Source of the DNA: Lentzea guizhouensis
GTDB taxonomy: Bacteria > Actinomycetota > Actinomycetes > Mycobacteriales > Pseudonocardiaceae
DNA: 64,000 bases
NCBI RefSeq assembly: GCF_001701025.1
Contig: NZ_CP016793.1
Coordinates: forward strand, 3,534,001 to 3,598,000
Direction: 5' to 3'
Under the pieces are notes generated by a model. The model saw only the letters and a list, made by a program, of their open reading frames with translations. It was not told the origin of the DNA and made no database searches. Positions 35,120 through 39,828 of the stretch are shown one piece after another. Position 1 is the first letter of the stretch; each line of letters opens with the position of its first letter. A program made the position numbers and the translations under genes.

Positions 35120-35416
35120 CTAGACGATCGCCAGTTGGCGCTTGCGGGCCTTGATGATGTGGTCGCGCTCCGATTCCGAGAGCCCGCCCCAGATCCCATA
35201 GGGTTCCTGCACGGCCAGCGCGTGCCTGCGGCACATCTCCAGCACCGGGCAGGCCAGGCAGACTGCCTTGGCGCGAGCTTCCCGCCGGGCTCTCGCCGGA
35301 CCCCGCTCACCGTCGGGGTGGAAGAAGAACGCGCTGTCCATGCCCCGGCATGAACCTCGCATCTGCCAGTCCCACAGATCTGCGTTGGGACCGGGGAGCC
35401 TTCGGGTGTCCGCCAT
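35120..35416 (-). CDS. whiB3: WhiB-family iron-sulfur regulator, WhiB3/WhiD type
   Basis: 98 residues. Four Cys (23, 53, 56, 62; pattern C-x29-C-x2-C-x5-C) bind a 4Fe-4S cluster; GIWGG at 74-78 and the basic C-terminal AT-hook-like part (KARKRQ) follow. The sequence LPGPNADLWDWQ...CRGMDS and the position beside groEL1 and upstream of sigD match mycobacterial WhiB3 and streptomycete WhiD. By family knowledge, it binds region 4 of the principal sigma factor and acts in redox response and late sporulation. GGAGG eight bases before ATG. Divergent from the MerR-type gene across 168 bp. Confidence 0.92.
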   Translation of the reverse strand: MADTRRLPGPNADLWDWQMRGSCRGMDSAFFFHPDGERGPARARREARAKAVCLACPVLEMCRRHALAVQEPYGIWGGLSESERDHIIKARKRQLAIV

Positions 35417-35584
35417 CGAGACCGCCTCCGTGACGACTGCTCCATTCGGCTTAACGATGATCCACCGTAGAACCGCGTCAAAACTTGTTCAAGAGGCTGA
35501 AGACCCAAATCAACTGATGGGTGACGGCACGCGTGGTCGATCACTCACCGCCCGGAGTTGCCGCCCGGATGAGGTGAACGGAAC

Positions 35585-36534
35585 ATGGCTCCCGTGATGA
35601 CCCAGCCGGAGCGCAGACCTGCCGGTAGTCACACGGGTGAGCCCCTCCTGTCCGTGGCGGCGGTGGCCAGGCGGCTCGGTGTGGCGCCGGCGACGTTGCG
35701 CACCTGGGACCGGCGCTACGGACTCGGGCCGAGCGGCCACACGGTCGGGCGGCACCGCAAGTACGGGCCTCGGGACGTGGCCCGGCTGGAGCTGATGCAG
35801 CGCGCTCTTCTTCGTGGCGCCTCATCGGCTGAAGCGGCTCGTTTCGCGCTCGACTCGAAGGCCTCGATGACGCGCGGCGAGGTTCCCGCCGCACCGGCGG
35901 GTGGCCGCGGGCTGAAGATGCCGGGCGCCTCCCGGCTCGCCCGCGGACTCGGCCGGGCGGCGCTCGCGATGGACTCCATCGCCGTGCAGGGGATGCTCGC
36001 CGACTCGCTCGCCGCCGACGGCGTGATCTTCACCTGGAACGAGGTCGTGCGGCCGGTGCTGACCGCCGTGTTGGCGCGGTGGGAGCTGTCGGGTGCCGGG
36101 GTGGAGGTCGAGCACCTGTTGAACGAGTGCGTGGTCGCGTCGTTCGTGCGTGCGACCCCGCTCGTCACCCTCGGGCGCAACCACCGGCCCGTGTTGCTCG
36201 CGTGCATGCCGGAGGAGAGGCACAACCTTCCGCTCTACCCGTTGGCGGCGGAGCTGGCGCAACGCGGGATCGTCGTTCGCCAGCTCGGGGCGGCCCTGCC
36301 CGTGGACGCGCTGGCGGCCGCGGTGCGCAGGACCGCGCCGTCGGCGGTGGTGCTGTGGGCGCAGCTGCCGAGGTACGCCGATCCGGGGGTGCGGCCGCGG
36401 TGCCGAGGACCCGGCAGCAGGTCCGGCTGTTCGTCGGCGGGCCGGGATGGCGGCGCGGGATGGTGCCGGCGCCGGCCGAGCGGGTCGAGGACCTCGCTGA
36501 CGCGGTGGCCGCGGTGGAGGCCGCCGTCACCTGA
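35585..36534 (+). CDS. MerR-family regulator with cobalamin-binding-like domains; frame interrupted in a G-run at 36385-36389
   Basis: About 316 residues if one G is restored. MerR winged helix 20-90 (LLSVAAVARRLGVAPATLRTWDRRYG). Residues 115-185 form a B12-binding helical cap with W166-x9-E176-H177, the signature of CarH/LitR photoreceptors. A Rossmann-like domain follows with E-x-H213-x-x-P (usual E/D-x-H-x-x-G). From the G5 run the original frame degenerates, while the -1 frame continues well (VPRTRQQVRLFVGGPGW ... ERVEDLADAVAAVEAAV) to TGA 36534. So either a base is missing in the data or the last about 50 residues are lost. Possible light- or B12-responsive repressor; function inferred. 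Confidence 0.8.
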
Positions 36535-36551: not shown

Positions 36552-37457
36552 GTGGAAGCTGGGGAAGACGAGCTGCGCCGGGCCGCTTTCGGCGACTCAC
36601 CCGATCTCGACGTGTGGGGAGCGCTCGCTTCCTCTTCTTCGCGCGTGCGGTGGCTCGCCGCCGTCGTGCTCGGCGGGCAGGGCCATTACGCCGCGGCGGC
36701 GACCGTGTTGGACGCGCTCCGTCACGACCCGGACCCGGTGATCGCCTCTCTCGCGCTGTCGACGCGCGCGTCGCACCACCGTCAGCTCGGTGCGCACCAC
36801 CTCGCGCGCGGACTGGACGGCTTGGCAATTGCCCGTGTGAGTGACACGGATGCGGGGGACCCTGATGGAGCCGACGCACTGGGCGCCCGGATCGACGCCC
36901 TGCTCGGGCTCGCCGCCGATGCGATCGGAGCGGGGCGGCCGCACGAGTCCCGCCGGCTGCTGGCCCAGGTCGGGGAGACCCGGTCCTGGCGGAGTTCCGT
37001 CCGGCTCGGCTGGGTGACCGCGGAGGTCGAGCTCGCCTCCGGCCGCGCGCACGACGCGGTGGCTCCCGCCGAGGAGGCGTACGGGGTGGCGACGGGGGCC
37101 GGTGCGGTGCGGCACGCCATCAAGTCGGCACTCGTGCTGGGCACCTCGTTGGTGGTGTGGGGGACACCCGACGGCCTGAAAAGAGGGGTTGATCTGGTTG
37201 GGTGTGACCTAAATCACAGTGCGATGAAGGGGCTTCATCCGTTGATCTGGCCGAGCGCTCTCGTCCTGGCGGGCCATGCCCCCACGGTGGACGCACGCGC
37301 CACCGACCGGGCTATCGAGGCTCTGAGCTGCGTGTTGCGGAGAGCGGCCCCCGTGAGCCGACAGGTCGCCTTCGAGTCCCCCTGGATCCCGACCGGGCTG
37401 CTCCGTTCCGGGGAACCCCCGAACGCAGACCCTCAGGCGAACTTCTTGACGGATTAA
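36552..37457 (+). CDS. Rv3415c-like helical-repeat protein
   Basis: 301 residues, mostly alpha-helical with TPR-like pairs (AAATVLDALRHDPDPVIASLALSTRASHHRQLG; ESRRLLAQVGETRSWRSSVRLGW). No membrane segment or catalytic motif. It sits where M. tuberculosis has Rv3415c, between the whiB3 and sigD genes, 17 bp after the MerR-type gene, so it may share its transcript. GTG start 36552. Role unknown; the helical repeats suggest protein binding. Around 37180-37220 a lower-GC segment (DLVGCDLNHSAMKG) stands out. Confidence 0.75.
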   Translation: MEAGEDELRRAAFGDSPDLDVWGALASSSSRVRWLAAVVLGGQGHYAAAATVLDALRHDPDPVIASLALSTRASHHRQLGAHHLARGLDGLAIARVSDTDAGDPDGADALGARIDALLGLAADAIGAGRPHESRRLLAQVGETRSWRSSVRLGWVTAEVELASGRAHDAVAPAEEAYGVATGAGAVRHAIKSALVLGTSLVVWGTPDGLKRGVDLVGCDLNHSAMKGLHPLIWPSALVLAGHAPTVDARATDRAIEALSCVLRRAAPVSRQVAFESPWIPTGLLRSGEPPNADPQANFLTD

Positions 37458-37538: not shown

Positions 37539-38135
37539 GTGACCACGGTCCTTATTTGCGACGACCGGCGCAGTGTGCGTGAGGGTCTCACCCGCGTGAT
37601 GTCGGCTGTCCCCGGGGTCAGCCGCATCGACTGCGTAGCGCACGGTGACGAGTTGTTGGCTCGCTTTTCCAGGCAGCCGGTCGACGTCGTACTGGTGGGA
37701 ACCCAGCGCGCCGTCCCGACCGGGGTGGAAGCAACCCGCCGGCTCGTCTCCGCGAACCCGCAGGCAAACGTCATCGTGTTCGGAGCCCCCGACGACGCGG
37801 GCAGCATCGCCGCCGCGATCGCCGGTGGCGCCCGCGGCTACCTGAGGTGGGACGCGTCGCGCCCCGAGCTTGTGGCAGCCCTCGCGCACACGCTCGCCAG
37901 CACCTCGGTGCCCGCACCGCGCCAGCCCTCCGACCCCGGTGTGCAGCTCACGGAGCGCGAGCTCCAGGTGCTGCGCGGCATGAGCCAGGGCAAGAGCAAC
38001 GGTCAGATCGGCCGCGAGCTCTACCTCTCGGAGGACACGGTCAAGACGCACGCCCGCCGCTTGTTCCGCAAGCTGGGTGTTCGTGACCGCGCTCAGGCGG
38101 TCGCGCACGGTTTCCGGCGCGGTCTCGTGCAGTAA
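37539..38135 (+). CDS. bldM: BldM-type atypical response regulator
   Basis: 198 residues. Degenerate receiver domain (1-120) plus LuxR/NarL helix-turn-helix (about 135-198: LTERELQVLRGMSQGKSN, LYLSEDTVKTHARRLFRKLGV). The acidic pocket Asp8-Asp9 remains, but the phosphoacceptor position is Gly54 (VLVGTQ) and the conserved Lys is Arg, so phosphorylation is not possible. The DNA-binding part closely resembles streptomycete BldM, which lies beside whiD and upstream of a sigma factor gene and guaB, as here. BldM controls aerial growth and sporulation genes as a homodimer or with WhiI. AAGGAG before GTG 37539. Confidence 0.88.
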   Translation: MTTVLICDDRRSVREGLTRVMSAVPGVSRIDCVAHGDELLARFSRQPVDVVLVGTQRAVPTGVEATRRLVSANPQANVIVFGAPDDAGSIAAAIAGGARGYLRWDASRPELVAALAHTLASTSVPAPRQPSDPGVQLTERELQVLRGMSQGKSNGQIGRELYLSEDTVKTHARRLFRKLGVRDRAQAVAHGFRRGLVQ

Positions 38136-38199: not shown

Positions 38200-38364
38200 C
38201 GGCCGTTCGGCGCGTCAGCCGGTCACGCGGGGTGTCCATACCCCACTGATGAACAATCGGCGCTCTGACCGGTACGGTGAGACCTGCTGCTCCGAGTCGC
38301 TGCGGGTGACTCGTGTTGTTCCATGTCGGTACGCCAACGAGTAACACCAGGGCTGTTGTCTGCG

Positions 38365-38937
38365 ATGACCAACTTGGGGGACGGACTGGACGCCGAAGTG
38401 GGCGCGGCCGTCGACGGCGACCGCCAGGCGATCGAACGCCTGCTGGCCTCCATTCGTCCTCTTGTGGTGCGGTACTGCCGCGCCAGAGTTGGCAGGCAGG
38501 AGCGGAGCTTCGCTTCGGCGGACGATGTGGCCCAGGAGGTGTGTCTCGCGGTGCTCACGGCATTGCCCAGCTACCGCGATCAGGGTCGGCCCTTCCTCGC
38601 GTTCGTCTACGGGATCGCGGCGCACAAGGTTGCCGATGCACATCGGTCTGCCGCCAGGAACCGCTCCGAACCCGTTCCTGAGGTTCCCGACGCGCCGGAG
38701 ACCGAAGCCGGTCCTGAGCAGCGGGCCATGCAGGGCGAACTCTCCGACCGGATGGCCGTCCTGCTGCGGGTCCTGCCGGAGAAGCAGCGGGAGATCCTGC
38801 TGTTGAGGGTGGTGGTCGGACTCTCCGCCGAGGAAACTGCCGAGGCGGTCGGTTCGACGCCGGGTGCGGTCCGGGTGGCGCAACACCGTGCGCTGGCTCG
38901 GCTTCGCAAGTCGCTGGCAGCGGAGGAGGTGGTCTGA
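38365..38937 (+). CDS. sigD: ECF-type RNA polymerase sigma factor SigD
   Basis: 190 residues. Region 2 (IRPLVVRYCRARVG ... SADDVAQEVCLAVLTALPSYRD ... FVYGIAAHKVADAHR) and region 4 (LPEKQREILLLRVVVGLSAEETAEAVGSTPGAVRVAQHRAL) closely match mycobacterial SigD, which has the same neighbours. ATG 38365 is chosen because family members begin around GDGLDAEV; ATG 38323 adds 14 residues. No clear Shine-Dalgarno. The gene for its membrane anti-sigma partner starts at the very next base, so the two are made together. Confidence 0.93.
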   Translation: MTNLGDGLDAEVGAAVDGDRQAIERLLASIRPLVVRYCRARVGRQERSFASADDVAQEVCLAVLTALPSYRDQGRPFLAFVYGIAAHKVADAHRSAARNRSEPVPEVPDAPETEAGPEQRAMQGELSDRMAVLLRVLPEKQREILLLRVVVGLSAEETAEAVGSTPGAVRVAQHRALARLRKSLAAEEVV

Positions 38938-39828
38938 GTGGCCGACGAACACGGGAAGGACGACGAGGAAGTGCGCGGACAGGACGATAGAGCCCCGCAC
39001 GAACCCGTCGCAGATGATCTTTCGGCTGTACAGGCCGATGACCGGCTGCTGGACGCACTGGGGTCCGCGACACCGGGTGCGGCCGGCGCACTGGTCGACG
39101 ACGAGCTGAACGCGTTGCTGCTCGCGTGGCGGCATGAGGTGGAGACCGAGCCCTTCGGCGAGCTCGTCGACACCGACACCGCCATCGCCACGATCCAGGC
39201 TGCCCGCCCGCAGCCGGTGAACAGGCACCGCTTCCTGATCCCACTGGCGAGCGCCGCCGCGGTGCTGGCCATCGCGTTCACCGGCGTGAGCCTCGTGGCC
39301 CGCGACGCCCAGCCGGGCGACGCGCTCTGGGGCCTCACCCGAGTGCTCTACTCCGAGCACGCGAAGTCCATCGAGGCAGCGGCCATCATCAACACCGACC
39401 TCGAGTCGGCCCGCCTGGCGCTGCGCGAGGGCAAGGTCAGCGAAGCCCGCGAGAAGCTGAACAAGATCGAGGCCAGCCTGGGCTCCGTCAACACCGACGA
39501 CGGCAAGGCCCAGCTGGAGGAGAAGCACAAGGAGCTCGAGAAGGAGCTCGACACGAACACCTCGGTGACGTCCCCCACGACGCCACCGCCGGTCGCGACC
39601 CAGCCGACGCAGCCGAGCACGAACCCCACGACGCCGTCGTCGACGCCGACCACGGAAACCTCCGTGTCGCAGCCGCCGACCACCACGTCGTCGGAGACGC
39701 CCCCGCCCCCGGACCCGACCTCGAACGGCGAAGAGCCCCCGCCTCCGCCGCCCGCGCCGGAACCCGGCACCGGGGAGACGATCGGGTCGACCGGGACCAA
39801 CGAGGGCGACTCCTCGGGCACGAACTGA
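38938..39828 (+). CDS. rsdA: Anti-sigma-D factor RsdA, membrane-anchored
   Basis: 296 residues. Cytoplasmic N-terminal part (1-95) with the sigma-binding segment DDELNALLLAWRHEVETEP, one membrane helix (about 99-121), a helical juxtamembrane region (ESARLALREGKVSEAREKLNKIEASLG) and a long Thr/Pro/Ser-rich outside tail. The size and layout match Rv3413c (RsdA), whose regulated proteolysis frees SigD. GTG start directly abuts the sigD stop. A strong terminator follows. Confidence 0.9.
   Translation: MADEHGKDDEEVRGQDDRAPHEPVADDLSAVQADDRLLDALGSATPGAAGALVDDELNALLLAWRHEVETEPFGELVDTDTAIATIQAARPQPVNRHRFLIPLASAAAVLAIAFTGVSLVARDAQPGDALWGLTRVLYSEHAKSIEAAAIINTDLESARLALREGKVSEAREKLNKIEASLGSVNTDDGKAQLEEKHKELEKELDTNTSVTSPTTPPPVATQPTQPSTNPTTPSSTPTTETSVSQPPTTTSSETPPPPDPTSNGEEPPPPPPAPEPGTGETIGSTGTNEGDSSGTN

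Follow-up and report, generated by a model that had tools for sequence, protein, structure and literature searches.

A CarH-derived MerR regulator beside whiB in Lentzea guizhouensis and its predicted operator in the whiB promoter

In Lentzea guizhouensis, a gene for a MerR protein that resembles the B12 photoreceptors CarH and LitR lies among developmental regulators on contig NZ_CP016793.1, within the 64,000-nucleotide stretch analysed here (the window). What does this protein control, and what does it sense? We consider it reasonably probable that it belongs to an ancient, vertically inherited, CarH-derived MerR subfamily located between groEL-whiB and bldM-sigD genes, that it controls the divergent whiB promoter, and that it does not sense adenosylcobalamin (AdoCbl) in the manner of CarH. 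The protein has a CarH-like fold and its gene a fixed place, and a conserved element in the whiB promoter co-occurs with the gene. This element is the predicted operator of the MerR protein. The features concerned are the following.

35585..36391, plus strand: MerR/CarH-like regulator, as far as it is read in the opening frame (residues 1-269, with the helix-turn-helix (HTH) at 23-86, then the helical bundle and the start of the Rossmann domain; from Pfam, PDB and 24 aligned Lentzea species)
36392..36534, plus strand: C-terminal end of the MerR/CarH-like gene in another frame, with a GGPGW motif (from comparison with 22 congeners)
35464..35492, minus strand: whiB promoter with a conserved element, candidate operator of the MerR protein (from footprint, genome pattern match and co-occurrence with the gene)
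35120..35416, minus strand: WhiB-family gene where WhiB3/WhiD is expected, transcribed away from the MerR gene and its predicted target (Pfam Whib E 4e-25, synteny)

The ATG at 35585 opens a MerR/CarH-like open reading frame whose residues 23-86 match Pfam MerR_1 (E 7e-14); Thermus CarH (PDB 5c8d) is matched over the HTH and the C-terminal domain (E 3.6e-14). The regulator has the fold of the CarH cobalamin domain, with 31% identity to Thermus thermophilus CarH (TtCarH) across that domain; the structure model used for the fold comparison was that of an intact ortholog (L009). The CarH/LitR-like MerR gene announced in the preliminary description is thus real. Its position is old as well: whiB lies divergently upstream in 76 of the 80 named loci, which are the best 80 among the matches listed in the homolog scan, and every count for named loci below carries this scope. 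The 76 loci span Nanopelagicales metagenome-assembled genomes (MAGs), Motilibacter, Pseudonocardia, Kutzneria, Kibdelosporangium, Amycolatopsis and Saccharopolyspora.

In the whiB-MerR gap, the plus strand at 35464-35492 reads ACCGTAGAACCGCGTCAAAACTTGTTCAA, a conserved promoter element that the preliminary description does not mention. On the whiB strand this contains a -35 box, TTGAAC (35487-35492), and a -10 box, TACGGT (35464-35469), separated by a 17-bp spacer, a length found in 49 of 50 loci. Across 27 gene-bearing loci outside Lentzea, both boxes contain invariant bases, and so does the spacer (-13, -11, -10, -6). The exact core TTGTTCAA is present in 24/24 Lentzea and in 26/28 other loci. 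We trained a weight matrix of 30 bp on 26 loci and scored each locus against 100 shuffles. The element was found at all 76 named whiB loci with the gene, at 57 as the exact core and at 19 by the matrix; some of the 57 exact-core loci are kin of, or from the same genomes as, the training loci. Each of the 19 loci beat 100/100 shuffles, two of them (L178, L219) narrowly.

Since the element contains the -35 and -10 boxes, it might be no more than the promoter of whiB, or be bound by a different regulator such as BldM or WhiB itself, with the MerR protein acting elsewhere; two MerR-less genomes (L132, L133) also keep it. We regard this explanation as unlikely. The spacer bases are conserved too, where a core promoter may vary freely. 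As controls, 12 loci around bldM were taken from genomes without a MerR gene there, 11 of which hold whiB. The exact core occurred in 3 of these 11 and a scored element in 2, while nine scored at chance level even though whiB and bldM are still present in all nine. Across 200 Pseudonocardiaceae genomes, the gene (at E<=1e-70) and the exact site CGNNYCANNNSTTGTTCAA, both sought in the same draw, occurred together in 146 and were both missing from 49, so that 195/200 agree; the tally was made by hand, and match positions were not individually checked. Two genomes carried the gene without the site (G029, G432) and three the site without the gene (G033, a fragmented genome; G430; and G441, where the match looks like background). 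The pattern recurs inside one genus, g5, again in disagreement with a promoter conserved for its own sake: gene and site are both found in G027, G397 and G385, the gene alone in G432, and neither in G277, G371, G409, G421, G442 and G451.

Four loci without the MerR gene (L130-L133, genera g43 and g37) keep whiB and, by eye, parts of the -35 and -10 boxes with diverged spacer bases; they may form a series of element decay.

How would the MerR protein act on this promoter? In the proposed mechanism it would bind the conserved element and, once bound, would block the whiB promoter, as a repressor like CarH. The -35 box and the spacer, constant at 17 bp, both lie under the element; such a spacer is already optimal and would need no untwisting, so the protein is probably a repressor of whiB. 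MerR-type activators untwist stretched spacers of 19-20 bp; the whiB promoter spacer has 17 bp. The regulon may be very small. Three patterns were run against the species' own genome, a single contig of 9,997,872 bases, and a 25-bp pattern allowed up to 3 mismatches had a single match, the whiB-MerR site.

The element also has some internal periodicity. A CAA word is repeated at a distance of 11 bp in 19/26 loci, and four loci (L072, L084, L086, L088) have two copies of the TTGTTCAA core, 25-27 bp apart, within the whiB-MerR gap. Classification as a LitR/CarH box was considered and dropped: by eye it resembles the CarH half-site nAnnTnnACAn in part, but the likeness breaks down in the TTGGTCAA variant, and only the 11-bp period was retained, with caution.

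As to what the protein senses, the preliminary description saw the cobalamin-binding pattern of the B12 photoreceptors and suggested light or B12 input into development or stress control. The residues are in place: W166, E176, H177, E211, H213 and P216 were all located in the window protein, with P216 aligned to the Gly that ends ExHxxG in TtCarH. In the Lentzea alignment W166, H177, E211 and H213 are present in 24/24 species and E176 in 23/24; Wx9EH is thus found in 23/24 and ExH in 24/24, and Wx9EH is absent from some orthologs beyond the window gene. The rest of the motif differs. Position 216 is Pro in 23/24 and Ser in 1/24 Lentzea, and at SxV/T, 41 residues past that Gly, all 24 have WxQ, with W258 in place of Ser, a substitution on which the preliminary description was silent. 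All 24 Lentzea rows and all 76 syntenic rows of named loci lack Gly at 216 and Ser at 258; among the 76, W occupies position 258 in 74 and R in the remaining 2. The GG at the motif end is kept in 23/23 congeners (285-286), and in the window gene it appears only in the shifted frame; GG in the window's own alignment row was discounted as a chance alignment of an out-of-frame stretch.

The published photoreceptor signature consists of GxxW, EH, GxxH and GxxxP (PMC11796333). In the 24 Lentzea rows GxxxP is found in 24 and EH in 23, and GxxW and GxxH in none. In TtCarH the His beside the motif Trp becomes a cobalt ligand after light (PMC8156234); in Lentzea this residue is Q or E. The NCBIfam CarH equivalog gave 64 bits against a cut-off of 400, and the species' own genome holds no protein above that cut-off; the value was dropped as evidence against membership, as none of the 14 control genomes, Thermus composti included, passed either. 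Two paralogs on the minus strand of the same genome, L002 (6856761-6857447) and L003 (8609244-8609879), have E-H and E-x-H and likewise replace the Ser by Trp, with Val at the Trp position of Wx9EH.

Wider sampling gives a similar picture. In the 76 syntenic named loci, W258 is present in 74, W166 in 67, P216 in 57, E176 in 56, H177 in 45 and H213 in 44, and Gly216 in none. The H177/H213 pair is complete in 42, lost entirely in 29 and reduced to one member in 5. The cobalt-ligand His213 is missing from all 17 Amycolatopsis and all 7 Saccharopolyspora rows. On a phylogeny of 107 rows built by a quick method, His losses fall in Amycolatopsis/Prauserella/Haloechinothrix, in Saccharopolyspora and in a few others, with at least six changes for each His. 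A clade of 26 rows outside Pseudonocardiaceae keeps W166, E176 and H213 in 26/26 and H177 in 25/26, with E or D at position 211. Eleven relatives located elsewhere in their genomes carry E176, H177 and H213 in 11/11, alongside P216 and W258 in 11/11. Because syntenic and non-syntenic relatives alike have P216/W258, the tail-pocket substitutions are old and general; entire branches have dropped the cobalt-ligand His. Two loci titled Clavibacter and Bifidobacterium breve (L215, L224) cluster with Nanopelagicales-like MAGs on the tree, and these labels do not fit.

A true CarH/LitR photoreceptor, binding AdoCbl as a tetramer in the dark and released from DNA by light to give light or B12 input to whiB and development, is quite improbable. 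The fold, the Wx9EH and ExH motifs of Lentzea and the near-complete ligand set of the clade outside Pseudonocardiaceae are what such a receptor would have. It would also be expected to have Gly216, Ser258, GxxW, GxxH and the His beside the motif Trp, which are lacking in Lentzea, and the cobalt-ligand His is gone from 32/76 named loci, all 32 of which have the element. The B12 light-sensor reading is weak, because two defining CarH positions differ and His213 was lost in Amycolatopsis and Saccharopolyspora. Of the earlier proposal, the CarH/LitR ancestry and fold stand, as does the link to developmental and stress genes, since the place is kept across deep actinobacterial lineages and the whiB promoter element accompanies the gene; the cobalamin or light input is unsupported.

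For the CarH-derived whiB regulator favoured here, a different input is proposed. Because Pro216 and Trp258 are predicted to fill the nucleotide-tail pocket, the protein would not bind AdoCbl in the base-off manner of CarH. In lineages with the His177/His213 pair, the pair may hold another ligand that serves as input; in Amycolatopsis and Saccharopolyspora there may be no input. Amycolatopsis lost the His pair and kept the element, which suggests that the regulatory switch can work without a His ligand. Lentzea, with the pair kept, is the place to seek a ligand. As a special case, the E-H/E-x-H set may hold heme, a corrinoid whose tail is not inserted or a metal ion, and so control binding to the whiB operator. 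This is possible but doubtful. The regulator fold is similar to that of a SCHIC-type heme sensor, but in the SCHIC domain of AppA, which binds heme, the ligating His sits two residues away and the pocket is occupied by a loop (PMC9144470). Correlated loss of H177 and H213 was rejected as proof of a shared ligand and kept as a hint only: with at least six changes of each His, an independent-pairs test cannot reach 0.05, and direct packing of the two residues could equally link their losses. More tentative still is the fuller scenario of an actinobacterial sister family of CarH with a rebuilt cofactor site, in which the two His facing each other and the Glu residues were kept, the tail pocket was plugged by Trp/Pro, and another tetrapyrrole (heme or a tail-less corrinoid) or a metal would be sensed and signalled to WhiB3/WhiD, an iron-sulphur regulator, through the promoter operator, whole genera later losing the ligand and keeping the switch.

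Several points weigh against the account of a CarH-derived repressor of whiB that has given up AdoCbl. Kinship among genomes means that 195/200 overstates the independent evidence. A 19-bp short form of the site, allowed 1 mismatch, has a second match in the own genome (2 in total). The element includes the whiB core promoter, which would be partly conserved anyway, and two MerR-less g37 loci keep most of it. Repression is preferred to activation from the spacing by itself, and the proposed tail block by Trp258/Pro216 comes from motif alignment. Finally, a pure relic would not need the residues W166, H177, E211, H213 and E176 that Lentzea retains.

Is the gene functional in this strain? The frameshift suspected in the preliminary description is present in the sequence. 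At about 36385 the opening frame parts from the family reading, to end at 36844 (419 aa), and the family C-terminus resumes in another frame with its stop at 36534; the change of frame falls at roughly 36380-36400. A shift common to all relatives, named beforehand as grounds against the idea, did not appear: the frame is intact across this stretch in 23/23 other Lentzea genomes searched. Compared with 22 congeners, omitting L013 (genome G012), which has a frame change of its own, the shifted tail has 82-93% amino acid identity, 324/490 differences are at third codon positions, and the family's own stop is the first stop met. Because the congeners read through and the tail still looks coding, the frameshift appears to be recent or a sequencing error. 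A recent pseudogene, non-functional in this strain and compatible with any family-level reading, is conceivable rather than likely. The last ~46 residues, with the final strands and helix of the Rossmann domain, are out of frame, but a sequencing error fits equally, the tail is coding-like, and the DNA-binding domain is intact. The ortholog analysis used intact copies, and both frames of the window gene were read separately. A comparison of the window with its nearest relative, G007 (95% identical in residues 1-269), for other frame changes gave 7 candidates among 40 reading frames; because genes and stop-to-stop frames were mixed in it and the MerR gene itself was unlisted, this result was given no weight. 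The separate, different shift in G012, a draft of 630 contigs, lies in the last few codons and gives a 455 aa open frame. G007, labelled 'Nocardia sp. NRRL S-836', falls within Lentzea, and a Streptomyces-labelled protein (P0113) is 93% Lentzea-like.

The further neighbours agree with those first described: beyond the divergent whiB come an Rv3415c-like gene, a bldM-like gene, an ECF sigma factor and RsdA.

36552..37457, plus strand: Rv3415c-like gene just 3' of the MerR gene, perhaps co-transcribed with it (no family match above a curated cut-off; we take the name from the gene's place)
37539..38135, plus strand: bldM-like LuxR-type response regulator (Pfam GerE and Response_reg; name from place and similarity)
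38323..38937, plus strand: ECF sigma factor of SigD/ShbA type (NCBIfam ShbA 295 bits, cut-off 209)
38938..39828, plus strand: RsdA-like anti-sigma factor (Pfam RsdA_SigD_bd E 1.4e-13)

The order groEL, whiB (divergent), MerR, Rv3415c-like, bldM-like, sigD, rsdA is found whole or in part in 29/40 fetched loci, our own included; the relative lies elsewhere in the genome in the other 11/40. The bldM-like protein is 96-100% identical among the Pseudonocardiaceae loci compared for synteny. By eye, its phosphorylatable Asp appears to be missing (VDVVLVGTQ against the usual DVVLMD-like stretch), and it seems to be an orphan pseudo-receiver.

In actinobacteria the whiB3/whiD genes tie development to redox state and starvation; we know of no regulator of this whiB promoter in Pseudonocardiaceae. 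A literature search, with most subscription journals outside its coverage, found no paper on the MerR gene or its candidate operator. The regulator is a CarH variant with a predicted whiB operator, and the analysis puts forward a single candidate regulator and a single exact site for the promoter, common to Nanopelagicales MAGs and to antibiotic producers such as Amycolatopsis and Saccharopolyspora. It also urges caution: an existing source names family members 'light-induced transcriptional regulator', and Wx9EH plus ExH in a MerR protein does not always mean a B12 light sensor.

Among known systems, CarH/LitR (TtCarH, PDB 5c8a/5c8d) shares the MerR HTH, helical bundle, Rossmann domain, Wx9EH and ExH, as well as an operator at the -35 box (a candidate one here) in which a short word recurs at a distance of 11 bp; CarH operators are described as 11-bp repeats in PMC8156234. 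The regulator differs in that its ExHxxG ends in Pro instead of Gly, its SxV/T has Trp in place of Ser and Gln in place of Val/Thr, no His stands beside the Trp, and the predicted target is whiB rather than carotenoid genes. Myxococcus CarA is a CarH-type protein that functions without B12 (PMC8156234), comparable to the Amycolatopsis and Saccharopolyspora orthologs without ligand residues. In contrast to the window protein, CarA lacks Wx9EH, with the B12 motif kept. The SCHIC domain of AppA (PDB 4heh) has no MerR HTH, and differs further by the two-residue shift of its heme His noted above. Photocobilins (PDB 8j2w, Saccharothrix syringae) are 22-23% identical, and their cobalamin domain is followed by a biliverdin domain (PMC11796333). 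BldC and other short MerR developmental regulators share a MerR-type HTH put to use in actinobacterial development. The regulator's match to 6ama, which we take to be the BldC structure, is weak (E 0.011). BldC is a small single-domain protein (PMC4255298).
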